NCBI GenBank assembly: GCA_026129905.1
Contig: JAHCHE010000005.1
Coordinates: 124,001-188,000, forward strand
Direction of reading: 5' to 3'
From: Bryobacteraceae bacterium
GTDB taxonomy: Bacteria; Acidobacteriota; Terriglobia; Bryobacterales; Bryobacteraceae
DNA: 64,000 nucleotides
Part shown: piece after piece, positions 7,627-23,677 of the stretch
How the letters are laid out: every line of letters starts with the position of its first letter
Position numbering within the stretch: position 1 is the first letter of the stretch
Notes under the pieces: model-generated
What the model was told of the DNA's origin: nothing
The model's database searches: none
What the model saw: the letters and a program-made list of their open reading frames with translations, nothing else
Made by a program: the position numbers and the translations under genes

Positions 7627-10047
7627 ATGACCGCTCGACGGAGCTTCGCCCTAATCGCCGCGTGGGGACTGGCGGCGGCGCTCCTGCCGGCTCAGGACAA
7701 GGTGGCCCAGTTCTCCGTCCTGACGGACTACTCGCTGGCGCTGTTCAAAGTGGACGGCAGAAACTACTACGGGAAGGCGACGTTCTCGTGGCCGGAAGGC
7801 ACGACGCACGTGCTGGAGTTTCCCTCGACGGAAGGATATCAGTACGCCGCCGGCGGCGCGAGCCGCTTCGGGTTCCAGGGCTGGGAAGACTCGACCGGGC
7901 TGCTGCCGAATCCGGACAACACGGTGCAGGTGGTGGTAGCGAACGCGGCCATCAAGTACTACAAGCTGCGGCTGGAGGCCGAATACCGGGTGAAAGTGAA
8001 CTTCTGGAAGGGCGAGGCAACCGGGGCAGGAGGCGTGCCGCCGGCGGTGTGCGGCCCTCCGGACGGCGCCCCGATCAGCAGCTTCCGGCCCGGCGTGGTG
8101 TTGATCGGCGACGCGTGCCTTTCCCAGGACGCGGAACTGTGGATGGTGGCGGGAACGTACAACCTGGCGGCGTTTCCGTATCCGGGGTTCGCGTTCACCG
8201 GGTGGAGCATCAACGACGGCGGTCCCAACGCGTTTCTGCGGACGCTCGACGTGCGGACGCCGCTGGTGGTGGCCGTCTACTTCCGCCCGGCCAAACGTCT
8301 CAAGTTCATCACGGAACCACTGGGATTGCAGGTGCTGCTCGACCGGACAGCCACGCCGACGCCGGCGGTCCTGCCGTGCGCCGAGAACCAGACGCTGCCG
8401 CGGAGCGCGCCTCCGGGCATTCCGGCGATGTGCATCGGGGAGGTGGATTGGGCGCTGAACTCGCAGCACGTCATCGGAGCAACGTCTCCGCAGAAGGACA
8501 GGATCGGGAAATACTGGGTCTTCAAGGCGTTCAACAACGGGATGGAGAATCACGCGCTGTACACGGTGCGGTCGCTACTGCCGGAGACGATTACCGCGAA
8601 GTTCGTCCAGGGGGCGCAGGTGAGTTTCCTGACGACGCCGACGGGGCTGAAGCTGACGGTGAACGGGCGGGACAACTGGCCTTCCTATAATTTTGTGGCG
8701 GCGGCGGGCGACAAGTACACGGTGACGGCGCCGGCGCGACAGACCGGACCGGACGGGCGCACGTACGTGTTCCGAGGCTGGTCCAACGGCGGGGAGGCGA
8801 CGCAGGAGGTGACGGTTCCCGCCGATGCGGTGGAGCGCGGATTCCGGATCACCGCGACCTACGAGATGCTGGGCCGGACGCTGATCTCGACCGAGCCGGC
8901 GGGAACGCCGGTGGAAGTGGACGGCGCGACGTGCGACACCCCGTGCGCAATCGACAAGCCGGACGGGACGGAGGTGCGGCTGGCCGCGCCGGCGCGGCGA
9001 TCGATCTCCCACGTACACCGCCTCGAGTTCGCGGCATGGTCGGATGGAGGGCCCAGGGAGAGAACCCTCAAGATCTCGGGCCGGGAGCCGCTGCGGCTGA
9101 CCGCGAACTACACGACGTATTACCGGCTGGAGACGGCCTCGCAGCCGGCGGGCGGCGCGAGCTTCGCGCTGACCCCGGCCTCGGCGGACGCCTTTTATGC
9201 GAAGGACGCCTGGGTGACGGTTGCGGCGAAAGCCCACGACGGCTACCGTTTCCGGCGCTGGGGCGGCGATCTGGATCACACGTATGACGTGGCGACGCTC
9301 CAGATGACGGTTCCGCACTCGCTGATCGCCCTGCTGGACGAGGTCCCGTACATCCCGCCTGCCGGGGTCCGCAACGCGGCCGGACTGACGCCGAACGAGG
9401 AAGTGGCGCCCGGTTCGATTATCTCGATCTATGGCGGCGGGCTGGCGCCTTACCTGGCAGGCGGCGGGCAGAACCCGCTGCCACAGACGATTGCCGGCGT
9501 CACAGTGGAGGTGGCATCGCGGCTGTTGGCGCTGCTGTTCGTCTCGCCGGCGCAGATCAACGCGGTGTTGCCGTACGATCTGCCGGAGGGGACGCACAGG
9601 TTGACGGTCCATCGGGACAGCCTCGCGGACGTGACGGGAGAATTTAAGGTCCTGCGGAACTCGCCCGGCCTGTTCACGCGCCTGTTCGACGAAAGGCTGT
9701 TCGTCATGGCGTCGCACGAGGACGGCTCGGCGGTGACGCTGGAGAGTCCGGCGGCGCGGGGAGAAACGATCCGCATCTACGGGACCGGTTTCGGGCCGTA
9801 CGATCGGGCGGCGCCGTACGGGTTCAACTTGCCGGGCTCGCCACGGTTCACCCTGGCCGATCCGCTGGAACTGTTCGTCGCGGGAAGGCCCGTCAAACAT
9901 GAATGGGCGGGCGGCGCGGCCGGCTATGCGGGCGCGGACGTTCTGCACCTCCGGATCACGGACGAACTGCCGGCGGCGGCGACCGTGGATCTGAAGGTAC
10001 GGATCAACGGCCGGGAGAGCAACGAGATTCTGTTGCCGCTCAAGTAA
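7627..10047 (+). CDS. Secreted protein with InlB-like beta repeats and Solibacter-type C-terminal domain
   Basis: The protein has 806 residues. The start at ATG 7627 is fixed by AAGGAG at 7612-7617 and opens a signal peptide ending at about LPAQ. The body has repeated modules of about 80 residues with the pattern of a hydrophobic strand, 'FRGWS(N/D)GG' and 'TATYE', as in bacterial InlB B-type and PEGA-like repeats (for example near residues 220, 330, 430 and 520). The last 240 residues, from VRNAAGLTPNEEVAPGS through SIYGGGLAP to the C-terminus, match the Solibacter uncharacterised C-terminal domain (TIGR03437) found in many paralogues of that lineage. It is likely an extracellular adhesin-like or carbohydrate-interacting protein; no enzyme motif is visible. 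Confidence 0.85.
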   Translation: MTARRSFALIAAWGLAAALLPAQDKVAQFSVLTDYSLALFKVDGRNYYGKATFSWPEGTTHVLEFPSTEGYQYAAGGASRFGFQGWEDSTGLLPNPDNTVQVVVANAAIKYYKLRLEAEYRVKVNFWKGEATGAGGVPPAVCGPPDGAPISSFRPGVVLIGDACLSQDAELWMVAGTYNLAAFPYPGFAFTGWSINDGGPNAFLRTLDVRTPLVVAVYFRPAKRLKFITEPLGLQVLLDRTATPTPAVLPCAENQTLPRSAPPGIPAMCIGEVDWALNSQHVIGATSPQKDRIGKYWVFKAFNNGMENHALYTVRSLLPETITAKFVQGAQVSFLTTPTGLKLTVNGRDNWPSYNFVAAAGDKYTVTAPARQTGPDGRTYVFRGWSNGGEATQEVTVPADAVERGFRITATYEMLGRTLISTEPAGTPVEVDGATCDTPCAIDKPDGTEVRLAAPARRSISHVHRLEFAAWSDGGPRERTLKISGREPLRLTANYTTYYRLETASQPAGGASFALTPASADAFYAKDAWVTVAAKAHDGYRFRRWGGDLDHTYDVATLQMTVPHSLIALLDEVPYIPPAGVRNAAGLTPNEEVAPGSIISIYGGGLAPYLAGGGQNPLPQTIAGVTVEVASRLLALLFVSPAQINAVLPYDLPEGTHRLTVHRDSLADVTGEFKVLRNSPGLFTRLFDERLFVMASHEDGSAVTLESPAARGETIRIYGTGFGPYDRAAPYGFNLPGSPRFTLADPLELFVAGRPVKHEWAGGAAGYAGADVLHLRITDELPAAATVDLKVRINGRESNEILLPLK

Positions 10048-10163
10048 GCATCCACGACCGCCCGAGGCGCGACGACGGGGCCGAGCGGCGTGGCCCGGGA
10101 GTTCCCGTGATTGGTTGCAATCAGGTTGCATATAGGCTTCAGGTCTGTTAATGTTTCAGCAAG

Positions 10164-10916
10164 ATGACACCTGTTCTGCAGCCGTTGCCGCTGCCACGGG
10201 TCGAGGTCAGGTCGCCGGTCGCGGACGCGGTGGTTGGCCCTCGGCGGATCGTCAACTGGTTGTTCGGGCTGATCGTATTGTTGGTGGCCGCGTCGCTGGC
10301 CGGACAAGTAGCGAAGTACTACTTCGGGCATGATCACCTGCTCGGGCTGGTCCGGCTGTTCCATCTGGACGCGGAAGCCAATGTTCCCACGTGGTTTTCC
10401 TCGGCCGGCCTTGCCTGTTGCGCGGTGTTGGCGGCGATTATCACCCTGCAGGTGAGACGGACCGGCGGGCGACGAATGCTCGAGTGGGCTGGGATATCGG
10501 CGATCTTTTTGGGGCTGTCGATTGACGAAGGGGCGCAGATTCACGAGCTGGCATCTCCGGTCATGGGGCGCCTCGGGTTTGTCGAGCGCACTTTCAGCGC
10601 CGAGTGGGTGGCGCTGGCCGTGATCGTTGGCGCGGTTCTCGGCATCGCGTACTGCCGGTTCTTCTTTACGTTGCCCAGAGCGACGCAGGCCCACTTCGCG
10701 CTTGGCGCGTTGCTCTACGTCGCCGGCGCCGCCGGCGTGGAGACCGTGGCCTGGACGCTGGTGGACAGCCCGGGGCAGACGACTTTCGTGTACGAGCTTG
10801 TCGCAACGCTGGAGGAGGCGCTGGAGATGACGGCAATCGTGATCTTCCTGCGCGGGCTGCTGCTTCACCTCGCTGCTAACTTCCGCGACTTCACCGTGCG
10901 CTTCGCACGGGACTAA
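10164..10916 (+). CDS. Polytopic membrane protein of unknown function
   Basis: The 250-residue protein has about six hydrophobic segments: near residues 28-50, 78-98, 107-125, 150-170, 178-200 and 215-240. Polar residues lie inside or beside them in two motifs, LGLSIDEGAQIHE near residue 118 and TLEEALEMTAI near residue 218. Clustered Asp/Glu/His in membrane segments can bind metal or act catalytically, but I cannot place the family. No ribosome site is obvious before ATG 10164. It lies alone between the secreted repeat protein and the DUF507 operon. Confidence 0.7.
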   Translation: MTPVLQPLPLPRVEVRSPVADAVVGPRRIVNWLFGLIVLLVAASLAGQVAKYYFGHDHLLGLVRLFHLDAEANVPTWFSSAGLACCAVLAAIITLQVRRTGGRRMLEWAGISAIFLGLSIDEGAQIHELASPVMGRLGFVERTFSAEWVALAVIVGAVLGIAYCRFFFTLPRATQAHFALGALLYVAGAAGVETVAWTLVDSPGQTTFVYELVATLEEALEMTAIVIFLRGLLLHLAANFRDFTVRFARD

Positions 10917-10984
10917 CCGAGAAGCCGAGGAACGCCAGAAGCCCGGGCGGGGCGCACACCAGCGGGAACCGTGAGAGTAGGCGT

Positions 10985-11014
10985 TTGACACGTCTGTTTC
11001 AGCGTCGCTACACT
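10985..11014 (+). promoter_or_regulatory. Strong sigma-70-type promoter for the DUF507-ribokinase operon
   Basis: A perfect -35 box TTGACA at 10985-10990 and TACACT at 11009-11014 are 18 bases apart. The expected transcript start near 11021 leaves a leader of about 25 bases before ATG 11046. Confidence 0.65.
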
Positions 11015-11045
11015 GAAATGTCGCTCTGCCTCAAATGAGCCAGTA

Positions 11046-11633
11046 ATGCTACTATCCAGGGAGTTTATCGGCTACCTCGCGCGTGAAATTGTAAAGAGAC
11101 TCGCTCCTAAAGTTTTCGAAGCCAACAACCCCCCGACCGCCATCGCTACCGTCGCCAAGGTGATCGAGGAAGACCTCCTCACCGAGGACCGGCTGAACGA
11201 CGAAGTACGGGAGATTCTGAGCCAGTACAGCGATTATATGCGTCAGGAGGGCATCTCCTACCAAGAGATGTTCCGGAAGATCAAGAACACCCTGATCGGG
11301 CAGCGAAAGGTGATCCGCGCCGCCGGCCGCGACACCGGCGACCCGATGAAGCTGTCGCGCGACAAGATCAACGACCTGTCGCACAAACTCGTCACGACGA
11401 TGCGCAAGGGCCGCAGCTTCCGGCTCAAGATGGACCCCAACGACGTGCGCCTGGAGATCGTCCGCGAGATCACGGACCTGCTGATGGCGGAAGAAAAGGT
11501 GGACCGGGCGGCGCGGGCGAAGATTCGTTCGCAGAAGCGCGAGATACCGGAAGGCAGCGAGGAGTGGGACCTGCTCCACCGGCGATACTACGCCGAAGAA
11601 CTGAAGAAGCTCGGCATCGACCTCGCTCCATGA
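11046..11633 (+). CDS. DUF507 family protein, tandem-duplicated
   Basis: The 195-residue protein matches DUF507, a short helical family of unknown function seen in Acidobacteriota, Aquificota and deltaproteobacterial lineages. Two related halves are visible. Residues 1-90 begin MLLSREFIGYLAREIVKRL and contain VIEEDLLTEDRLNDEVREIL. Residues 101-195 begin MKLSRDKINDLSHKLVTTM and contain EIVREITDLLMAEEKVDRAA. The C-terminus is Arg/Lys-rich and ends with ELKKLGIDLAP. The gene follows a good promoter and its stop overlaps the start of the ribokinase gene by ATGA, so translation is probably coupled. Confidence 0.85.
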   Translation: MLLSREFIGYLAREIVKRLAPKVFEANNPPTAIATVAKVIEEDLLTEDRLNDEVREILSQYSDYMRQEGISYQEMFRKIKNTLIGQRKVIRAAGRDTGDPMKLSRDKINDLSHKLVTTMRKGRSFRLKMDPNDVRLEIVREITDLLMAEEKVDRAARAKIRSQKREIPEGSEEWDLLHRRYYAEELKKLGIDLAP

Positions 11634-12583
11634 CCTTCCCGATTGTAGTCGTCGGCAGTCTCAACATGGACTTTGTGGTCACGGTGGAGCGTCTGCCCGC
11701 TCCGGGCGAGACCGTCCTCGGCGGGCAGTTCCAGATGATTCCCGGCGGAAAAGGGGCGAACCAGGCGTGCGCGGCGGGCCGGCTTGGGGCGGGTTCAACC
11801 GGGACGCGGATGATCGGGCGAGTGGGTTACGACCTTTTCGCCGATCACCTGAAGGCGAGCCTGGCGGCGGCCGGGGTGGACGTCAGCGGCGTACACGCGA
11901 CGAAATCGCAGCCGACGGGCGTTGCGCTGATCTGGGTGGAGCGCACGGGGCAGAACTCGATCGTGGTGGCCTCCGGAGCGAACCTGGCGCTGGCGGCGGC
12001 GGATGCCGAAGCAACGCGGCCGAGTTTCCGCGGGGCGAAGGCGGCGCTGTTCCAACTGGAGAGCCCGCTGGACACGGTGGAGGCGGGGCTGAAGATCGCG
12101 CGAGAAGAAGGCGCGCTGACGATTCTGGATCCGGCGCCGGCGCAGCGGCTATCCGAGAGCCTGCTGCGATTGGTGGACATTCTCACGCCGAACGAGACGG
12201 AAGCCTGTCTGCTGTTGGGACGGCCGCCGGGCCGGGTGACCGTGGACGATGCGCCGGCCATCATCGCGCAACTGCTGGCGGCGGGTCCGAAAGCAGCCGT
12301 ACTGAAGTTGGGCGACCTGGGATGCGTGTATTCGGACGGCTCGCGGACGCTGGTGAGTCCGGCGTTCCAGGTAGAGGCGCGCGATGCGACGGCCGCCGGC
12401 GACACGTTCAACGGAGCGCTGGCGGTGGCGCTGGCGGAAGGCAAGGACATGCCGGAGGTGCTAAGGTTCGCGAACGCGGCGGCGGCGATTTCGGTGACGC
12501 GGCTGGGCGCGCAGGCATCGATTCCATCGCGGGGCGAGGTGGACGTCTTCCTGTCGCGAGCGGCAAGAGAAACCGGCCCCTGA
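11630..12583 (+). CDS. rbsK: Ribokinase (PfkB family)
   Basis: The enzyme of 317 residues phosphorylates ribose, or a related sugar, at the 5-hydroxyl with ATP. It has the N-terminal VVGSLNMDFVV signature, the sugar-binding GGKGANQACAAGRLG segment near residue 42, LTPNETEA near residue 190 and the C-terminal catalytic DATAAGDTFNGALA with the base Asp. ATG 11630 overlaps the DUF507 stop by four bases. No ribose transporter or regulator is near, so the sugar source is unclear. A different pentose or nucleoside-derived substrate is possible, but the wording is that of ribokinase rather than fructokinase. Confidence 0.9.
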   Translation: MTFPIVVVGSLNMDFVVTVERLPAPGETVLGGQFQMIPGGKGANQACAAGRLGAGSTGTRMIGRVGYDLFADHLKASLAAAGVDVSGVHATKSQPTGVALIWVERTGQNSIVVASGANLALAAADAEATRPSFRGAKAALFQLESPLDTVEAGLKIAREEGALTILDPAPAQRLSESLLRLVDILTPNETEACLLLGRPPGRVTVDDAPAIIAQLLAAGPKAAVLKLGDLGCVYSDGSRTLVSPAFQVEARDATAAGDTFNGALAVALAEGKDMPEVLRFANAAAAISVTRLGAQASIPSRGEVDVFLSRAARETGP

Positions 12584-12587
12584 AGCC

Positions 12588-14267
12588 TCAGCCAAGGTCG
12601 TAAACAACAAACTGGCGGTTCTCGAACACAGGGCGGCGGTCCTTGACCTTGTTTTCGGGTCCGACGACGACGTAGCGGATGCCGCGCTCCTTGTACCTGG
12701 GGAGGTGTTCGGTCTTGAAGCCGGGGGCGACAGTATCCTGCCAGCGGCGCCACCACTCGTGCGCGAACTCCTTCACCATGTTCACTTGGCCACCGCTTTT
12801 CCAGTCCACGTAGATGGCGCGGAGCGCGCGGCTCCGAAACACGCCGGGATGCGGGCCGCGGCCGGCGTCGGGGAACAGGAAGACAGCGTCGCGGGGCGTC
12901 TGGGAGCGGGCCCAGGCGCAGAGTTCGCGCAATTCGGGCGTTTCGATGGAGGGCTCGGCGGCGACGACTTTGGCGTGATAAGGCAGAAGGAAAAAAGGTA
13001 AGACCAGCGCGGCGCTCCAGGCGGGCCAGGATAGCGCCGGGCGGCGCTCATCGAGCCACGCAGCGGCGGCCGCCAAGGCCGCGAGGACAAGCGCGAGCGC
13101 GAACCGCCGCCGGGTCAGAGGATCGTTTAGGTCCGGCAGGAGCAGCATCGAGACGCGCGGCTGGATCACGGCGGCGAAAGCAAACATGCCCCACAACAAA
13201 GCTTCCGGGAGGCGCCGGAGCGAGGCGGCTTTAAGCGCCGCGGTGATCGCCAGAACGATGGCGAAGGCGGTGACGAACAACAGTGCGCGCATGGGCTGGA
13301 ACTTCGGCATCAGCGCCCATTTCCAGCGGTCGAGGAGCAGGTAGCTAGCGGGCATGCTGAGCATGCCGATAAGCGGGAGTCCGGCGGCGAAGAACTGCAG
13401 GCCGGCCGGCATCTGCTTGCGCAGGCGGAGAAATGCGGCGATGGAGACCGCCCAGACAAAGAGGTAATGTCCGATCCAGTCGCCGACCCAGGCCGAAGCC
13501 CAGCTATAGGAAGCCCGCATGCGCTGAAGCTGTTCGAGGTCCGGATCGATGCGGCCGAGCGGGGGGTGGGATTCGGCGACGCCGAACTGAAGACGGGAAA
13601 GGACAAACAACGCCACGGCGGCCAGAGCGAGGGGCGCCAGCCCGTAGATGCGTTTCTTCATCACGTCCGGGCGCGTGGGCCACAGGTCCATCGCGAAGAA
13701 GACCAGCCAGAAAGGGTAGACGGTGGGAGGGTGGTAGAGAAACGCGAGCGATCCGAAAGCGCCGGAGGCGAGATAGCGGCCGTGGGCGGCGCAGCCGACA
13801 GCGAGCAGGATCAGGGGGACGGCCGAGGCTCGAGGCTTCGGTTCGTACTCCACGGTCAGCACGGCGGGGCCGAGGATCTGCGCCCCAAGGGCGTAGACGC
13901 CCGCGACGAGCAACGCCGGGCGGGTGGACAGTCCCGCGGCGGAGGCGATGAGGAAGACGCCTAAGATGCCGAGGGCGCGGTGAAACAGGTGCTCGGCCGC
14001 GAGGACCTGCTCGAAATCGAGGCCGGAGATCCAGCGGCCGGCGAGGGCGAGTTCGTCCCAGACGGTGAAGGTTACGTGGTGCCGGACGGCGACCGGGTCC
14101 TGCGCCAGCGCTCCGGGGTCCCACAGATGCTCGAGGATGGGGACATAGATCTGGCTGTCCTGGCGCAGGTAGGTGTGGCCGGGGAAGACAAGGTAGCTGA
14201 GGGCGGCCAGCAGCGCCACCGCCGCCGCCATCTTCAGGCCGAATGCCGTTCCCGCGGGCGCCTTCAT
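12588..14267 (-). CDS. GT-C-like polytopic membrane protein
   Basis: The protein of 559 residues has roughly ten to twelve hydrophobic segments and a soluble C-terminal domain of about 120 residues. An acidic loop follows the first membrane helix (GHTYLRQDSQIYVPIL), as in GT-C glycosyltransferases that use lipid-linked sugars. The C-terminal part contains ELCAWARSQTPRDAVFLFP and RAIYVDWKSGGQ, a form seen in proteins annotated as DUF6798. Transfer activity is not proven by any motif here. It starts 4 bases after the stop of the MFS gene and is the last gene of a long leftward run. Confidence 0.7.
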   Translation of the reverse strand: MKAPAGTAFGLKMAAAVALLAALSYLVFPGHTYLRQDSQIYVPILEHLWDPGALAQDPVAVRHHVTFTVWDELALAGRWISGLDFEQVLAAEHLFHRALGILGVFLIASAAGLSTRPALLVAGVYALGAQILGPAVLTVEYEPKPRASAVPLILLAVGCAAHGRYLASGAFGSLAFLYHPPTVYPFWLVFFAMDLWPTRPDVMKKRIYGLAPLALAAVALFVLSRLQFGVAESHPPLGRIDPDLEQLQRMRASYSWASAWVGDWIGHYLFVWAVSIAAFLRLRKQMPAGLQFFAAGLPLIGMLSMPASYLLLDRWKWALMPKFQPMRALLFVTAFAIVLAITAALKAASLRRLPEALLWGMFAFAAVIQPRVSMLLLPDLNDPLTRRRFALALVLAALAAAAAWLDERRPALSWPAWSAALVLPFFLLPYHAKVVAAEPSIETPELRELCAWARSQTPRDAVFLFPDAGRGPHPGVFRSRALRAIYVDWKSGGQVNMVKEFAHEWWRRWQDTVAPGFKTEHLPRYKERGIRYVVVGPENKVKDRRPVFENRQFVVYDLG

Positions 14268-17044: not shown

Positions 17045-18490
17045 TCAGGCGGGGCGCACGTTGACCTTTTCGGCCATGCGGCATTCTGCGTGAACGGCCT
17101 GCACGGCCTTCTCGAGGCCGTCGCGGCGCACGACGATGGCGATGGTCAACTCGCTGGAGCCCTGCGCAATAGCGATGATGTTGACGCTCTGCTTGGAGAT
17201 GGCGTTGAAGACGCCGCCGGCGATGCCGGGCGTTCCCTGCATGCCTTCGCCGACGACGGCCAGCAGTCCGACGTTCTCGTCCACTTCGATGGGCTTGAGG
17301 TAGCCGTGGATGAGTTCCAGCGAAAGACCCGCTTCCAGGGCCTCGACGGCCGTTTCCAATTCCTCTTTGCGGACCAGGAAGCAGAAGCTTTGTTGATAGC
17401 TGGAGCTGGAGAAGGCCAGGACCTCGGTATTCGTGCCGGCGAGCGCTTCCAGCGCCCGGGCCATGACGCGAGCGCCCGAGACGGCGGCGCTGGCGGGGTC
17501 GACGGAGACCAGCGCGACTTTGTTCATGGACGTTACGGCGCGGGCGCCGGGCGCGGCCACCGTGAGGGCGGCGATGCGGGTTCCGGGCTTTTCGGGCGCG
17601 AAGCTGTTCTTGCTCCAGACAGGGATCTGTTTGTCGATGAGCGGGGCGAGCGTACGGGGATGCAGAACCTTGGCGCCGTTATAGGCCAGTTCGGCCGCTT
17701 CCCGGTAGGTCACTTCGTCGAGCACGGCGGCGTCGGGTACCAGCCTTGGGTCCGCCGTCATGATGCCGTCGACGTCGGTCCAGATCCAGAGCTCGGAGGC
17801 GTCGAGGGCGAAAGCCAGGATGGAGGCGGTGAAGTCGGAGCCGCCGCGGCCGAGCGTCGTAGGGTGGCCGTCGACGGTGGCGCCGTTGAAGCCGGTCGCG
17901 ATGGGGATGCGGCCTGCCTCGACAGCGGGCAGGAGCCGGCCGCGCGCCTTCTCGCGCGTGGGGTCCATCACCGGGGAGGCGCTGCCGAAAACCGCATCGG
18001 TGACGATGACCTCCTCGCAGTTGACGGCCTCGGCGGGGACGCCCTCCGATTCCAGGTACGCCGCCATCAGAACCGAGGACAGGTGCTCGCCGACCGCGAT
18101 CCCTTCGTCCACCGAACGCGGCGGCCTCTCGCCCAGCATGAGCATCCCGAAAGCGATGCGCTGAAAGCGGCCGATAGCGGCCTGCATCGCGTCGAGCGCG
18201 GCCTGCTGGGCGCCGGGCGGCAGCAGAGCGCAGCAGGTATCGACGTGCTTCGTCTCGAGGGCGCGGAGTTTCGCCTCCATGCCCTCGCGATCGCCGACTT
18301 CGGCGCGCTTGAGGGTGTCGATCAGAAGGTCGGTTACCCCCGACATGGCGGAAACGACGACCACAACGGGCCGAGTTTTTCGCGCGTCGGCGGAGATTCG
18401 GGCGGCCGCCCGGATCCGGTCGGCCGAACCCATGCTGGTCCCGCCGAATTTCATCACTAGCAAATCGTTCAACGGATTAGGTCCTTTCAC
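17045..18490 (-). CDS. lysC: Aspartate kinase, monofunctional with two ACT domains
   Basis: The enzyme phosphorylates L-aspartate, the first step toward lysine, threonine and methionine. Of its 481 residues, the N-terminal kinase domain begins [15 protein letters not shown] and includes [21 protein letters not shown] and [17 protein letters not shown]. The C-terminal 170 residues carry two ACT repeats ([17 protein letters not shown] and [19 protein letters not shown]) for feedback inhibition. The size and ACT layout are of the LysC/AK III type, with no homoserine dehydrogenase fused. Start GTG 18490 overlaps the cytidylate kinase stop as GTGA, implying translational coupling; ATG 18457 is an alternative. 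Confidence 0.93.
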
Positions 18491-19599
18491 GTGCGCTGGC
18501 GCACGAGGGTAACAATGGCTTCCTCAACCTCGTCGAGGGACAGGCCGGTCGTATCGAGATACGCGGCGTTCGGGGCTCGGACGAGGGGAGAATCGGAGCG
18601 GCCGCTGTCGCGCGCGTCGCGTTCGCGCATGTCGCGCGCGACCTGGTCGAGCGTCATATCCCGCCCCCGCTCGTGGAGTTCGCGGAGGCGTCGGCGGGCG
18701 CGGGTGTCGGGGTCGGCGTCAAGGTAGACCTTGACTTCGGCATCGGGGAACACGACCGATCCGATGTCGCGCCCCTCCATCACCACGCCGCCGGCGGCGC
18801 CCATGCGGCGCTGCTTTTCGACCAGGGCGCGGCGGACGCCGGGAATGGCGGAGACCCGTGACGCGAGGTCCGAGACTTCGTGAGCGCGGATAGCCTGAGT
18901 GACGTCCTGGCCGTCGAGGAGCACCTGGTCCGGGGCGGTTCGGAGCTCGATGCCGGCGTCGCGCGCGAGGCGCTCCACCTCCGCGTCACCGAGCGGCGCG
19001 GCAGTCCGCAAGACCAGCAGGCCCACCGCGCGGTACATCGCGCCGGTATCGATGTAGAGAAAGCCCAAACGCGCGGCGAGGCGGCGCGCAATCGTGCTTT
19101 TACCGGCGCCGGCGGGACCGTCGATGGCGATAACCGGGCGCCGGACAGCCGTCAGAGGATTCACAGCAAACATATAGTCCGCTACGGGCCTGCCGCCAAT
19201 CAAGTGTTCCTGGATGATGCGCTCGAGAACCTCGGGCGTAGCCGAGTGATACCAGATGCCATCGGGATAGACGACGGCGATGGGACCATTGCGGCAGATA
19301 CGGAGGCAGTTGGCTTTCGTGCGGTAGACGCAATCGTCGCCGGCGGTGAGGCCAAGTTGTTGCAGGCGCTTCTTCAGGTAGTCCCAGGCGGGTAGGTTAA
19401 CTTCCTTGGAGGCGCATTCCGGCTTGGTCTGGTCCGCGCAGAGGAAGATGTGGCGGCGGAGCCGGCCGACGCCGAGCGAGGAGGCGAGACGCGCCAGTTC
19501 GGAGTTCGGGGCGCCAGAGGTTGACGGCGCCGGGTCCGAGGTGGATTCATCCGCCGATTCGGGAAGCGCCGGCTCGGCCGGGGCGTTGTCCTGATTCAT
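18487..19599 (-). CDS. cmk: Fusion of [2Fe-2S] thioredoxin-like ferredoxin domain with cytidylate kinase
   Basis: A single 370-residue frame. Residues 1-45 are an Ala/Ser/Pro-rich tail. Residues 48-146 match the thioredoxin-like [2Fe-2S] ferredoxins: candidate cluster ligands C54, C62, C98 and C102, followed by [13 protein letters not shown] and [12 protein letters not shown], wording very close to the Aquifex/Azotobacter ferredoxin fold. Residues 156-370 are a complete (d)CMP kinase: P-loop GPAGAGKST at about 161, [27 protein letters not shown] and the DRxxRxDSxPL-type segment [14 protein letters not shown]. The kinase converts CMP or dCMP to the diphosphate. The ferredoxin part may sense redox state or oxygen, which is inference. 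The stop overlaps the aspartate kinase start (GTGA). Confidence 0.9.
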
Positions 19600-20076: not shown

Positions 20077-21270
20077 TCAGTCGAGCGATTCGTCCCGCAA
20101 TTGGCGGTACAGCATCTCATAGCGCCGCGCTACGTGCTCGATCGAGTATTCCTCCCGAACGCTCTCGCGGCCGGCCGCGCCCAACTTCGCGCGCCAAGCC
20201 GGGTCCTCCAAGAGGCGGTTAAGTTCTCGCGCGACTGCCTGCTCGTCGTCCACGGGCACGCGAATGCCGTTCACGCCGTGCTCTATCAACTGACTCATCG
20301 CCGGAATATCGGTTACCAGCGAGGGAAGACCCACCGCCATTGCCTCAATGAGCGAGCACGGGATGCCCTCCTCCGAGGAAACCAGGGCGAAGACATCGCT
20401 CGCCTGAAGCCATTGTCGAACCCGCTCCGTTCCCGCCATTCCCGCAAGTACGACCCTGCTTTCCAGACCGGCCTCACGGATGCGCTCCACCACCTCGGGG
20501 CGGGCCGGTCCGTCGCCGACCAGGATCAGCTTTGCCGAGGGCCGCCGTGGCGCGAGCCGGGCGAAACCCGCCACAAGCAGCGACAGCCTCTTGCTCGGTA
20601 CGAAGCGTCCAGTGAACACCACAACGCCGGCATCGGCCGCCAAGCCGAGTTCCCGGCGAAGGCGCCGCCGTTCCTCGGCGTCGCAGGGGCGGAAATCCGC
20701 CGGATCCACCTCGCACGGGAGCGTGACGATTCTGTCGGGGGAAACGCCCAGCTCAGTAAACTCCCGCACCATGGCGGGGTTCAGCGCGATTACCCGGCTG
20801 GAGAACCGGCGCAGCACGCGCAGTTCGAGCCGACCGACAGCCGTCGCTTCCAGTTCCCGCAAGTCCCCGCTGCCGCCAAACATCGTGACGGTCCCCTTGC
20901 CGAGGAAGCGAGCCAGCGGCAAACCGATCAGCACCTGCAAGCCGCCGAGCAGGAAATGAGCGATGTCGTACGTGCGCCGGTCCTTCAACAGCGTCCAAGC
21001 CACGTTGAGCGCGAAAACCCGCCCGCGCCACGAGGAGGGCCATCTCGATCCGAAGGCCCGAACCGGTGTTCCACGAGCGTCGATCCAGCGCTCGGCTGCA
21101 GGCATCGGATCCCCTCCGGAACACAACACGCGCACGGAATGCCCATGGGCGAGCAAGGCTCCGGCGAGTCTCTGGCCGTGAATCTCGGCGCCGCCCACGA
21201 CAGGCGGAAAGAAATACGAGATCAGGATTACCGAAACCGGCCATTCGATGCCGGTTGAGCCGGTGGTCAT
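20077..21270 (-). CDS. GT4-family glycosyltransferase
   Basis: The 397-residue enzyme has a GT-B fold. The N-terminal domain opens with ILISYFFPPVVGGAEIHGQRLAGAL, containing the acceptor-side GG loop. The C-terminal domain has VVFTGRFVPSKRL and the donor-binding E-x7-E motif in SSEEGIPCSLIEAMAVGLP. Such retaining enzymes transfer a sugar from a nucleotide donor to a lipid, polysaccharide or natural-product acceptor. ATG 21270 overlaps the stop of the SIR2-fold gene as ATGA. It is the last gene of the methyltransferase/SIR2/GT operon. The sugar and acceptor are unknown. Confidence 0.93.
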   Translation of the reverse strand: MTTGSTGIEWPVSVILISYFFPPVVGGAEIHGQRLAGALLAHGHSVRVLCSGGDPMPAAERWIDARGTPVRAFGSRWPSSWRGRVFALNVAWTLLKDRRTYDIAHFLLGGLQVLIGLPLARFLGKGTVTMFGGSGDLRELEATAVGRLELRVLRRFSSRVIALNPAMVREFTELGVSPDRIVTLPCEVDPADFRPCDAEERRRLRRELGLAADAGVVVFTGRFVPSKRLSLLVAGFARLAPRRPSAKLILVGDGPARPEVVERIREAGLESRVVLAGMAGTERVRQWLQASDVFALVSSEEGIPCSLIEAMAVGLPSLVTDIPAMSQLIEHGVNGIRVPVDDEQAVARELNRLLEDPAWRAKLGAAGRESVREEYSIEHVARRYEMLYRQLRDESLD

Positions 21271-22547
21271 GTCACAGGCGCGGCAACGTTGGCTGCGACG
21301 GGAGCGGCATCCTGGCCGAGGGCGGCGTGAAGACGCGCCATCGCCTCGCCCGCCGGAAGCCGTACGAACAAATCCTGGTTCTGCGGCGCCTCGACCGGAT
21401 AGGGAATGGCCGATCCGTCCGGAGCTATATAACGTTCGGGATCGATGAAAATCACCCGAAGTCCGAGCTCCCGCGCCCGGATCTGGGCGAGCCTCCGGTC
21501 CGCGTGCACCCCGATCACCAGGAGCGACTTTGCGCGCGGGTCGAATTCGATCTGACGCAGAAGGGAGTCCTTCATGCAAGTGAAATAGGGTTCTGTGTCG
21601 TAGCGCCGAAGCGACATCTCGTCCACCCCGGCCTCTGCGCACAGACAGTCGAAGTTGTTGGTGATGAACGGTCCCACGAACCATCGCCGACGCCAGAGGT
21701 CGTGGGCCTGGCGGTAGAACGGCGTCGGCTCAGCGACGATGCATGCCCGGTAAATCGCGGTCATCTCCCGGTATTTCTCCTCCGGCGTTGAGAACAGGCC
21801 GAGGATCGAGTCCTCCTCCGCACGGAACACGAACGAGAAGTCCGCTTTCGAGACTCCGTAGATCTTGTGCAGCGTCGACAAGTGGGGTATGCCCGCCTCC
21901 GTCGAAGGCCCGCATCCCAGCTCCAATTGCGCCGGCAGATGCTCGACAATCTGCTCCGGCTCGACCATCGTCGGCGAGCCTTTCGGCAGGATCGCTCGAA
22001 GACCGACATCATAGAACCACCGCCAAGGCCGCTCGATCAGACCGTCGGGCAACTCGTAGGCCGCCGTCTGCACGCGAAACTCAAGGTGTTGGTGCGTCGG
22101 CGGTAACGCGTTGCCTCTTCGCTCATCCTCAGGGTGCGTAGGCCAGAGCCGCATCGCGGCGACGAGGTCTCCGCGACGCCATTCCTCGAAGCCCGACTTC
22201 CATCCGGACATTTTCCATCCGCCGAAAGCCAGACTGGCGTGGATCGCCTCCCAGTAGGGACCAACCTCCTCGTCAACGCTGGTCAGGTTCAGTGAAAGGT
22301 ATGCGTTGCGAAGGACGAACGAGCGTCCGTCGAGGTCGTACTCGTCGTAGAAGTGGATGAGCCTGCGCCGCCTGTCGCCGGGATGTTTCCACCCTGAAAG
22401 CGCGGCATTGGCGGGATCCTGGTGGCGGCGCCAGATCGACTCAGTCCATTTCCGATGCCAGCCGGAGCGGTCGCTGTTCATATGCCGGTGGAATCGATCC
22501 TGTTGCCTGGGAGTCAACTCTTCGATCAGGACAAATGGGAACTTCAT
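21267..22547 (-). CDS. SIR2-fold protein with novel N-terminal domain
   Basis: The protein has 426 residues. The C-terminal half shows a Rossmann-like sirtuin pattern. LELGCGPSTEAGIP at 208-221 corresponds to the GAGxSxxSGIP NAD loop. FITNNFDCLCAEAG at 294-307 corresponds to TQNxDxLHxxAG, with Asn298 and Asp300 kept. SLLVIGVHADRR at 341-352 and LRVIFIDPE at 363-371 correspond to the later NAD-binding strands. The catalytic His-Gly segment and the zinc-ribbon cysteines of true deacetylases are not seen. Residues 1-200, rich in Trp and Arg, match nothing I know. ATG 22547 and the stop both overlap neighbours by ATGA. NAD binding or hydrolysis is inference; sequence-only recognition is moderate. 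Confidence 0.7.
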   Translation of the reverse strand: MKFPFVLIEELTPRQQDRFHRHMNSDRSGWHRKWTESIWRRHQDPANAALSGWKHPGDRRRRLIHFYDEYDLDGRSFVLRNAYLSLNLTSVDEEVGPYWEAIHASLAFGGWKMSGWKSGFEEWRRGDLVAAMRLWPTHPEDERRGNALPPTHQHLEFRVQTAAYELPDGLIERPWRWFYDVGLRAILPKGSPTMVEPEQIVEHLPAQLELGCGPSTEAGIPHLSTLHKIYGVSKADFSFVFRAEEDSILGLFSTPEEKYREMTAIYRACIVAEPTPFYRQAHDLWRRRWFVGPFITNNFDCLCAEAGVDEMSLRRYDTEPYFTCMKDSLLRQIEFDPRAKSLLVIGVHADRRLAQIRARELGLRVIFIDPERYIAPDGSAIPYPVEAPQNQDLFVRLPAGEAMARLHAALGQDAAPVAANVAAPVT

Positions 22548-23677
22548 GGCTTCTTCTCCGCAAGAACGATCAGATCCGGACCTTGCAGCGTGTCGTCCAC
22601 CCAGACCAGTTCTTCCCGCGTCAGGAAGCCGGCCAGAAGCTGTACGCTGCATTCCGTTTTCGCCGCCACGATCCGGAATCCGGCGTTCGTCAGCAGAACT
22701 TCCAGCGACCGCCGCGAAAACAGATGCAGGTGATCACTGCGAAACGAGCGGTATGAGCCGCCGAACGCACGAATTTCAAGCGCGTCCATGCTGGGGAGCA
22801 TCAGCGCCAACAGGCCGCCAGGGGCCAGAACTTCACGCGCGCCGCCGATCTCGGCTGCCGGATCATCGACATGCTCAAGCACGAATTGGTAGAGCGCCAA
22901 ATCCTGCGAACCGGGCGACACCGCCCCGGCGGCAAGAGCTTCGCGCAGTGTCCCGGCGAAGGTCGACATGCCGTACAGACGCCTGGCCATCTCAACGGCA
23001 TGTGGGTTCAGATCGACCCCGAAGGTGATACAGCCGAGATTTTCGGCTGCCCTCCGCGTGTAGCCAAAGCCGCTGCCAACCTCCAGTATCCGTTTCGGCG
23101 CCCGTCCGAGTCTCGCGGCGATCCAGCGAATGACCTCCGCGCCCCGCCTTTCCCGATACTCGCGTTCGCCGCTGTAATCGGAATACCCGGCCCCGTCCAT
23201 GCCTTGGCTTGTATAGTAAGAGGCGGCCGCATACACGTCCGGAGCGGCCATCCCCACCAGCAAAGAACCGTGACCGCACCCCGCACACCGTCCGTAGATA
23301 AGCGGTGGTTTTTCGTTCCCGATCCGGCGGGCGTACTTCGGCTCCGCGGCGCCGTCGCCGCAGATGCGGCAGCGCTCCCAGGTCTCCGCCGAATTGGAAG
23401 CTTCTGCGGGAACCTGGAGATTGTACGGGGAATAACGGTCAAACGCCGCGCCCAGGGTCCGGACGCGCAGGCCGACATCGCGGCACTCGGGGTTCCACAG
23501 CCGCCCGTATTCCCGAGTGACGCTGCGCCAGGTCTCAGCGTCGATCCGCAGCACCCGCAGAATCGAAGAGACGTGCTCTTCCGGATCGTCGTAGCGGAGA
23601 GCACCATCCTTGGTGATTGTCCAACGCGCCACCCTGCCGCTCCCGTCCCTCCGATTAGAATCCGTCGATCCAATCAT
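22544..23677 (-). CDS. Class I SAM-dependent methyltransferase with zinc-ribbon
   Basis: The 377-residue protein has three parts. Residues 1-100 are an unfamiliar N-terminal region. At 103-134 there is a four-cysteine ribbon (CRIC and CAGC, C103/C106/C131/C134), as in the C- and N-methyltransferases of unusual-sugar and polyketide pathways. From about 195 there is a Rossmann methyltransferase domain with ILEVGSGFGYTRRAAE (SAM motif I), FGVDLNPHAVEMAR, and YQFVLEHVDDPAAEI. A late HLHLFSRRSLEVLLTNAGF is typical of sugar methyltransferases. ATG 23677 is the only good start. It is the first gene of the operon and its stop overlaps the SIR2-fold gene start by ATGA. Confidence 0.88.
   Translation of the reverse strand: MIGSTDSNRRDGSGRVARWTITKDGALRYDDPEEHVSSILRVLRIDAETWRSVTREYGRLWNPECRDVGLRVRTLGAAFDRYSPYNLQVPAEASNSAETWERCRICGDGAAEPKYARRIGNEKPPLIYGRCAGCGHGSLLVGMAAPDVYAAASYYTSQGMDGAGYSDYSGEREYRERRGAEVIRWIAARLGRAPKRILEVGSGFGYTRRAAENLGCITFGVDLNPHAVEMARRLYGMSTFAGTLREALAAGAVSPGSQDLALYQFVLEHVDDPAAEIGGAREVLAPGGLLALMLPSMDALEIRAFGGSYRSFRSDHLHLFSRRSLEVLLTNAGFRIVAAKTECSVQLLAGFLTREELVWVDDTLQGPDLIVLAEKKP

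Follow-up and report, generated by a model that had tools for sequence, protein, structure and literature searches.

Sirtuins are known as protein deacylases, as protein adenosine diphosphate (ADP)-ribosyltransferases, and as antiphage NADases acting on nicotinamide adenine dinucleotide (NAD). Within this fold, SirTM was reported to be an ADP-ribosyltransferase and not a deacylase, with glutamine in place of the catalytic histidine, a retained zinc-coordinating domain, and GcvH-L as the protein it acts on (PMC4518038). For FAM118, activity was described to need a histidine, and a similarly placed histidine matters in SIRT2 and ThsA (PMC12700824). Here, these systems are compared with a three-gene operon from a Bryobacteraceae bacterium (assembly GCA_026129905.1, 8.57 Mb in 71 contigs). 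The operon lies in a stretch of 64,000 nucleotides, positions 124,001 to 188,000 of contig JAHCHE010000005.1, which is called the window throughout and in which all coordinates are given unless another record is named. Its middle gene encodes SIR2L, a member of a family without a name, which is predicted to have a SIR2 fold with a remodelled active site and which recurs together with a methyltransferase (MTase) and an exchangeable glycosyltransferase.

All three genes are read from the minus strand in the order MTase (22544-23677), SIR2L (protein P0002, 21267-22547 with the stop codon included), and a glycosyltransferase of family 4 (GT4, 20077-21270). The MTase stop overlaps the SIR2L start in an ATGA at 22544..22547, and the SIR2L stop overlaps the GT4 start in a second ATGA at 21267..21270. 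A first-pass annotation of the window had described the same two overlaps with the same coordinates, order, and strand, and re-reading of the sequence reproduced them. Its assignments of the outer genes were also borne out. The MTase is a class I S-adenosylmethionine methyltransferase matching PF13489 (Methyltransf_23, E 1.6e-21). It is extended at its N-terminus and carries a zinc-ribbon-like CxxC...CxxC stretch (C103, C106, C131, and C134; 23276..23371, minus strand) that is kept in all three orthologues. The GT4 protein matches PF13692 and PF00534 in Pfam.

The same three genes in the same order were found in a Myxococcales metagenome-assembled genome (locus L002), where the MTase is 45%, SIR2L 58%, and GT4 38% identical to the window proteins. 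In this locus, 48 bases separate MTase and SIR2L (27 if an earlier ATG is taken as start), and SIR2L overlaps GT4 at a GTG start codon. A second genome of the same class (G1173, locus L089) has the order GT2 (9642-10361), MTase (10358-11437), and SIR2L (11434-12672), with ATGA at both joints and no GT4 match in the 40 kb that were read. In all three loci of this type, which are the ones outside the Streptomyces type described below, the MTase gene is next to SIR2L and a glycosyltransferase gene stands beside the pair, drawn from two families and placed on two sides. Because G1173 has an upstream GT2 and no GT4 match, the recurring core is the MTase-SIR2L pair with an exchangeable glycosyltransferase, and a fixed three-gene system is ruled out in the form proposed. 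The suggestion of the first-pass annotation that the three genes act as one set is thus supported by the translational coupling and the kept neighbourhood, but not for the trio as such, as one of the three loci has GT2 in place of GT4.

SIR2L is rare among the genomes searched. A full-length copy was found only in the bacterium's own genome among 101 near relatives (1/101), 396 genomes of the phylum (1/396), and 257 genomes of the order (1/257, with short weak matches in four others), these three samples overlapping. A scan of a genome collection returned one SIR2L locus, L002, and was not exhaustive, as it did not return G1173. Profile searches found SIR2L in 1 of 282 genomes of the L002 phylum and, in full length, in 2 of 317 genomes of its class, with partial matches in two more. 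Short weak matches (E 0.001-0.007) were not counted, which applies to four of the five matched genomes in the order and to two of the four in the L002 class, and since four to seven first-look candidates were scored per genome in the large searches, some copies might have been missed. Full-length MTase orthologues were seen only in SIR2L-bearing genomes, namely in 1 of 61 relatives (five further genomes match in part) and in 2 of 317 genomes of the L002 class (the same two as for SIR2L; four further genomes match in part). The first-pass annotation had made its reading depend on the three genes being neighbours in related genomes as well. Such a neighbourhood is absent from the near relatives in the samples above and present in the distant L002. 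That the operon is a chance run of unrelated genes might be suspected from the lack of full-length SIR2L in the near relatives searched, but is already contradicted by the same order in L002 and by the same ATGA-joined pair in G1173, and may be considered practically negligible.

The assignment of SIR2L to the SIR2 fold comes from profile and structure comparisons. P0002 alone matched nothing in Pfam at E up to 10 and nothing in PADLOC or PHROGs, and its NCBIfam match (E 0.17) is at chance level. Weak matches to the sirtuin family PF02146 were obtained in six of eight family members (best E 0.0072), but not in P0002 itself, which thus has no hit above the curated cut-off. When the family profile was aligned by hhalign with ten sirtuins, a probability of 91.4% was reached, collinear over residues 210-406, while five other protein families gave at most 0.7% (two of these profiles were built from two sequences only) and none of 50 column-shuffled sirtuin profiles went above 2.7%. 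With twelve SIR2L rows, the values were 89.7% in local and 95.9% in global mode. The sirtuin set consisted of the 10 of 15 full-length loci L019-L033 that passed a motif filter, trimmed by script; it contains neither the other five nor L034 and L035, which are partial. A Foldseek search of the PDB with a weak SIR2L model ranked SIRT2 first (probability 1.00, E 0.001) with a loose fit (root-mean-square deviation, rmsd, about 10), and also listed a transhydrogenase at rank 12 (probability 0.99). Among Foldseek's 1000 best matches, VIA-align gave Plasmodium Sir2A with Z 14.7 and rmsd 3.6 over 169 aligned residues (model residues 189-420), and nothing in BFVD matched at E 0.001. An earlier model, made from two sequences, had reached a pLDDT of 42.4; the structure searches used the later one. 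Taken together, these comparisons of profiles and predicted models indicate a SIR2 fold for the C-terminal half of SIR2L (core at residues ~191-413, 21309..21977, minus strand) and agree with the fold proposed by the first-pass annotation. The N-terminal domain (residues 1-190, 21978..22547, minus strand) appears specific to the family; a sequence search with 7 of the 8 alignment rows found nothing in the PDB at E up to 10 and a single Pfam hit of chance level. A separate canonical sirtuin is encoded in the same genome (G000:C12, L024).

Among 12 full-length members, the window protein included, several motifs collinear with those of sirtuins are invariant (all coordinates minus strand). GCGPS at 21903..21917, with Cys212, stands for the sirtuin GAGxS (GCGxS in 12/12), and NFD at 21648..21656 for NID (12/12). 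RRYD at 21597..21608 occupies the segment that holds the catalytic LHG of sirtuins (12/12), GVHADRR at 21492..21512 lies where sirtuins have GTS (GxHADRR in 12/12), and DPE at 21435..21443 corresponds to N-x-E or N-x-D (D-x-E in 12/12). Cys212 is the only invariant cysteine, and the members share no conserved zinc ribbon that would correspond to the four-cysteine module of sirtuins. The invariant histidines are 65, 138, 227, and 348, none of them in the catalytic segment; a catalytic histidine in the LHG segment is absent from all 12. Its place is taken by R315 or Y316, ambiguous by one residue, as the profile alignment has a gap there. Because of GCG for GAG, RRYD in the histidine segment, and the lack of a conserved zinc ribbon, SIR2L is, as judged from these alignments, no ordinary sirtuin but a protein with a remodelled site.

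A different gene setting was found on plasmids. Of 13 plasmid matches, 11 are real, all from Streptomyces or Kitasatospora, and eight of these cover at least 80% of the query; the remaining two, from E. coli (E 9), are put down to chance. Viral contigs gave no SIR2L when searched with the single protein and two loci when searched with the family alignment, and one of these contigs has the length and the protein of the plasmid of Streptomyces sp. NA02950; phages gave no match. This other type comprises nine full-length loci (L003-L010 on eight Streptomyces or Kitasatospora plasmids, and L014 on a viral contig). Genes for a class III aminotransferase, a UDP-glucose (uridine diphosphate glucose) dehydrogenase, and an RmlD-like reductase are each found near SIR2L in eight of the nine, and a GNAT gene in seven, one copy being in two pieces; L004 has only the RmlD-like gene out of these four. 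The place of SIR2L relative to the aminotransferase gene changes among the intact clusters. Compared with L003, SIR2L is 45-50% identical in these clusters, the aminotransferase 75-84%, and the UDP-glucose dehydrogenase 79-88%, so that, by identity, SIR2L diverges faster than these two enzymes. Three further Streptomyces plasmids (L011, L012, and L013) carry broken or partial copies. What is left of the cluster in L011 and L012 shares 82-84% identity with L003, and L011 has a transposase gene after its partial SIR2L. The NA02950 plasmid itself (NZ_CP054917.1, L003/L073) is a linear plasmid of 152 kb with a five-gene SIR2L cluster and is also annotated with major capsid, tape measure, terminase, and holin genes, and is by this annotation a phage-plasmid with biosynthetic-looking cargo.

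These plasmid clusters bear on the question of whether SIR2L is an enzyme at all. It could be catalytically silent and bind NAD or a nucleotide sugar as a scaffold or sensor for the MTase and the glycosyltransferase, and the missing catalytic histidine, the lack of a conserved zinc ribbon, and a translational coupling that suits a complex are in line with this idea. On the other hand, the replacement motifs are invariant in all 12 members, and SIR2L has stayed next to other enzymes in plasmid clusters that have no match to the MTase, which fits an enzyme better than a dedicated scaffold. A silent role is therefore regarded as rather unlikely, while still being the strongest of the rivals.

A role in defence had been offered by the first-pass annotation as an option; in an antiphage system, SIR2L would act as an NADase. 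SIR2-fold NADases are known in defence, and two plasmid loci have defence genes at some distance: L003 an AbiV gene ~7 kb away and a Pycsar-like gene elsewhere on the record, and L008 type I-E CRISPR genes from ~7.5 kb upstream. None of these genes is seen again in the remaining annotated loci, however, and no defence gene was recognised beside the operons of the window, L002, and L089, where open reading frames (ORFs) were judged by eye only. At E up to 1, neither SIR2L (P0002, P0004, and P0010) nor GT4 matched a PADLOC model, and the MTase gave two matches, in its generic domain only (mad2, E 3.8e-6; MTase_II, E 0.041). Moreover, the histidine segment is lost in SIR2L. A defence system was thus rejected as a candidate, and the antiphage reading is considered highly improbable.

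SirTM offers another model, in which SIR2L would be a protein ADP-ribosyltransferase that regulates a partner protein, the MTase or the glycosyltransferase. SirTM, too, is described as lacking the catalytic histidine, and the protein it modifies is encoded in the same operon (PMC4518038). However, no macrodomain was found among the genes compared with Pfam or the annotated plasmid neighbours, a genome-wide macrodomain search not being part of this; the glutamine and the zinc-coordinating domain of SirTM have no counterpart in SIR2L, and the partners vary between contexts. This makes a SirTM-like regulatory function improbable, if less so than a role in defence.

The reading favoured here, held with slightly less than even confidence, is that the operon is a small accessory module for the synthesis or tailoring of a sugar-containing product, with a core of the MTase and a histidine-less sirtuin-fold enzyme that perhaps moves ADP-ribose from NAD. 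There is reasonable support for the module and for its sugar setting. A glycosyltransferase is present in all three MTase-type loci, sugar-nucleotide enzymes are encoded in the plasmid-type loci only, where the Streptomyces homologues of SIR2L are found, and a relative of the MTase belongs to a heptose-like glycan cluster in another genome of the L002 class (G1136; L099 5852-12065). This relative is 33-41% identical over ~210 residues and lacks the ribbon cysteines; it adjoins a GT2 gene, with an HddA-like kinase, a nucleotidyltransferase, and an epimerase nearby, and a further protein without an NCBIfam hit is read by us as SIS-type. The sugar or glycan setting suggested by the first-pass annotation thus finds support. 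It is preferred because sugar chemistry is common to both context types, whereas defence genes lie near two plasmid loci only, and because of this sugar theme and the SirTM precedent, an enzyme using NAD or another nucleotide is favoured.

The product of such a module might be a surface glycan, a lipid-linked sugar, or a glycosylated small molecule, and the glycosyltransferase joined to the pair (GT4 in the window and L002, GT2 in G1173) would move the sugar. SIR2L would bind NAD+ or some other nucleotide and, having lost the deacylase histidine, might transfer an ADP-ribosyl or ribosyl part, the acceptor possibly being a compound made or methylated by the partner enzymes, in analogy to the histidine-less SirTM, whose ADP-ribose acceptor is a protein encoded in the same operon. 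NAD chemistry in the form foreseen by the first-pass annotation is not supported as stated; the SIR2 catalytic histidine is missing, and the NAD step of SIR2L is one that we infer.

Several observations weigh against this reading. A SIR2-type fold can bind nucleotides without cleaving them. The SIR2L model is weak (pLDDT 56.9, from four sequences), and only one of 764 Foldseek matches reaches E 0.001. By sequence, the family profile hits an adenosylhomocysteinase best in the PDB (E 0.014), with the first sirtuin behind it (E 0.039), which is taken as a generic Rossmann similarity. The glycosyltransferase partner varies between GT4 and GT2, and the surroundings of the window operon are no glycan cluster, the operon standing alone. 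No plasmid record matches the MTase at E 1e-10, so that the two context types share SIR2L only. In G1136, the HddA, nucleotidyltransferase, and epimerase matches all lie below the NCBIfam cut-offs, and the N-terminus common to the window MTase and its relative rests on an alignment by eye.

A bolder version, which seems doubtful at present, is that SIR2L represents a new sirtuin-fold biosynthetic class using NAD+ as a building block. Its remodelled site, with the cysteine of GCG and with RRYD in the LHG segment, would place ADP-ribose or ribose on a sugar or small molecule, which would be methylated, aminated, acetylated, or glycosylated by the partner enzymes. If true, the sirtuin fold would reach into sugar or natural-product biosynthesis through a conserved histidine-less branch whose genes accompany those of methyl-, glycosyl-, amino-, and acetyltransferases in three groups of bacteria distant from one another.

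In the window, the operon is flanked by Zincin_1 and cytidylate kinase genes on one side and by a sigma-54 response regulator gene on the other (window ORFs, Pfam), with a gene beside the latter that we read as its sensor kinase (together HK-NtrC). The GC content at third codon positions is 0.72-0.77 in the three operon genes and 0.77-0.89 in 11 other genes measured; the ranges touch, and the slightly low values are only a hint at a foreign origin. The HK-NtrC neighbours were traced to seven relatives and stretches of 8.6-13 kb were read, none of which has the three operon genes beside the pair; in L070, a remote GT4-like match (26% over 180 residues) lies at a distance of ~3 kb. A clean empty site is not demonstrable, as the downstream genes of the seven relatives differ by eye. 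The cytidylate kinase gene (18487-19599) has its Pfam match at residues 157-367, preceded by ~150 extra N-terminal residues with several cysteines, which we take to be a ferredoxin-like domain, Pfam naming the kinase part only. Farther away, 28157-29599 matches the C-terminal domain of L-arabinose isomerase (30.5 bits, cut-off 25).

Compared with known systems, the fold of SIR2L is not new; the family, its remodelled site, and its gene setting are without description in the licensed full-text papers searched. Glycan and heptose clusters share Methyltransf_23 and glycosyltransferases of the GT2 and GT4 types with the SIR2L loci, and the G1136 cluster contains the related MTase; they differ in that G1136 has no SIR2L match at E 0.01 and in that the window operon lies outside any such cluster. 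Antiphage SIR2 proteins and human FAM118 share a noncanonical SIR2 fold with SIR2L, but a histidine is needed for activity in FAM118 and matters at a like position in SIRT2 and ThsA, and the SIR2L segment has none. Sirtuins (SIR2, PF02146) have in common with SIR2L the SIR2-type Rossmann core and the collinear GxGxS, N-x-D, and late acidic motifs, whereas in SIR2L GAG is replaced by GCG, the LHG segment reads RRYD, a conserved zinc ribbon is missing, and there is an extra N-terminal domain. SirTM resembles SIR2L in the replaced catalytic histidine and in an operon with partners; the replacing residue is glutamine in SirTM and arginine or tyrosine in SIR2L, and the partners are a macrodomain protein and GcvH-L for SirTM, as against an MTase and a glycosyltransferase, or sugar enzymes, for SIR2L.

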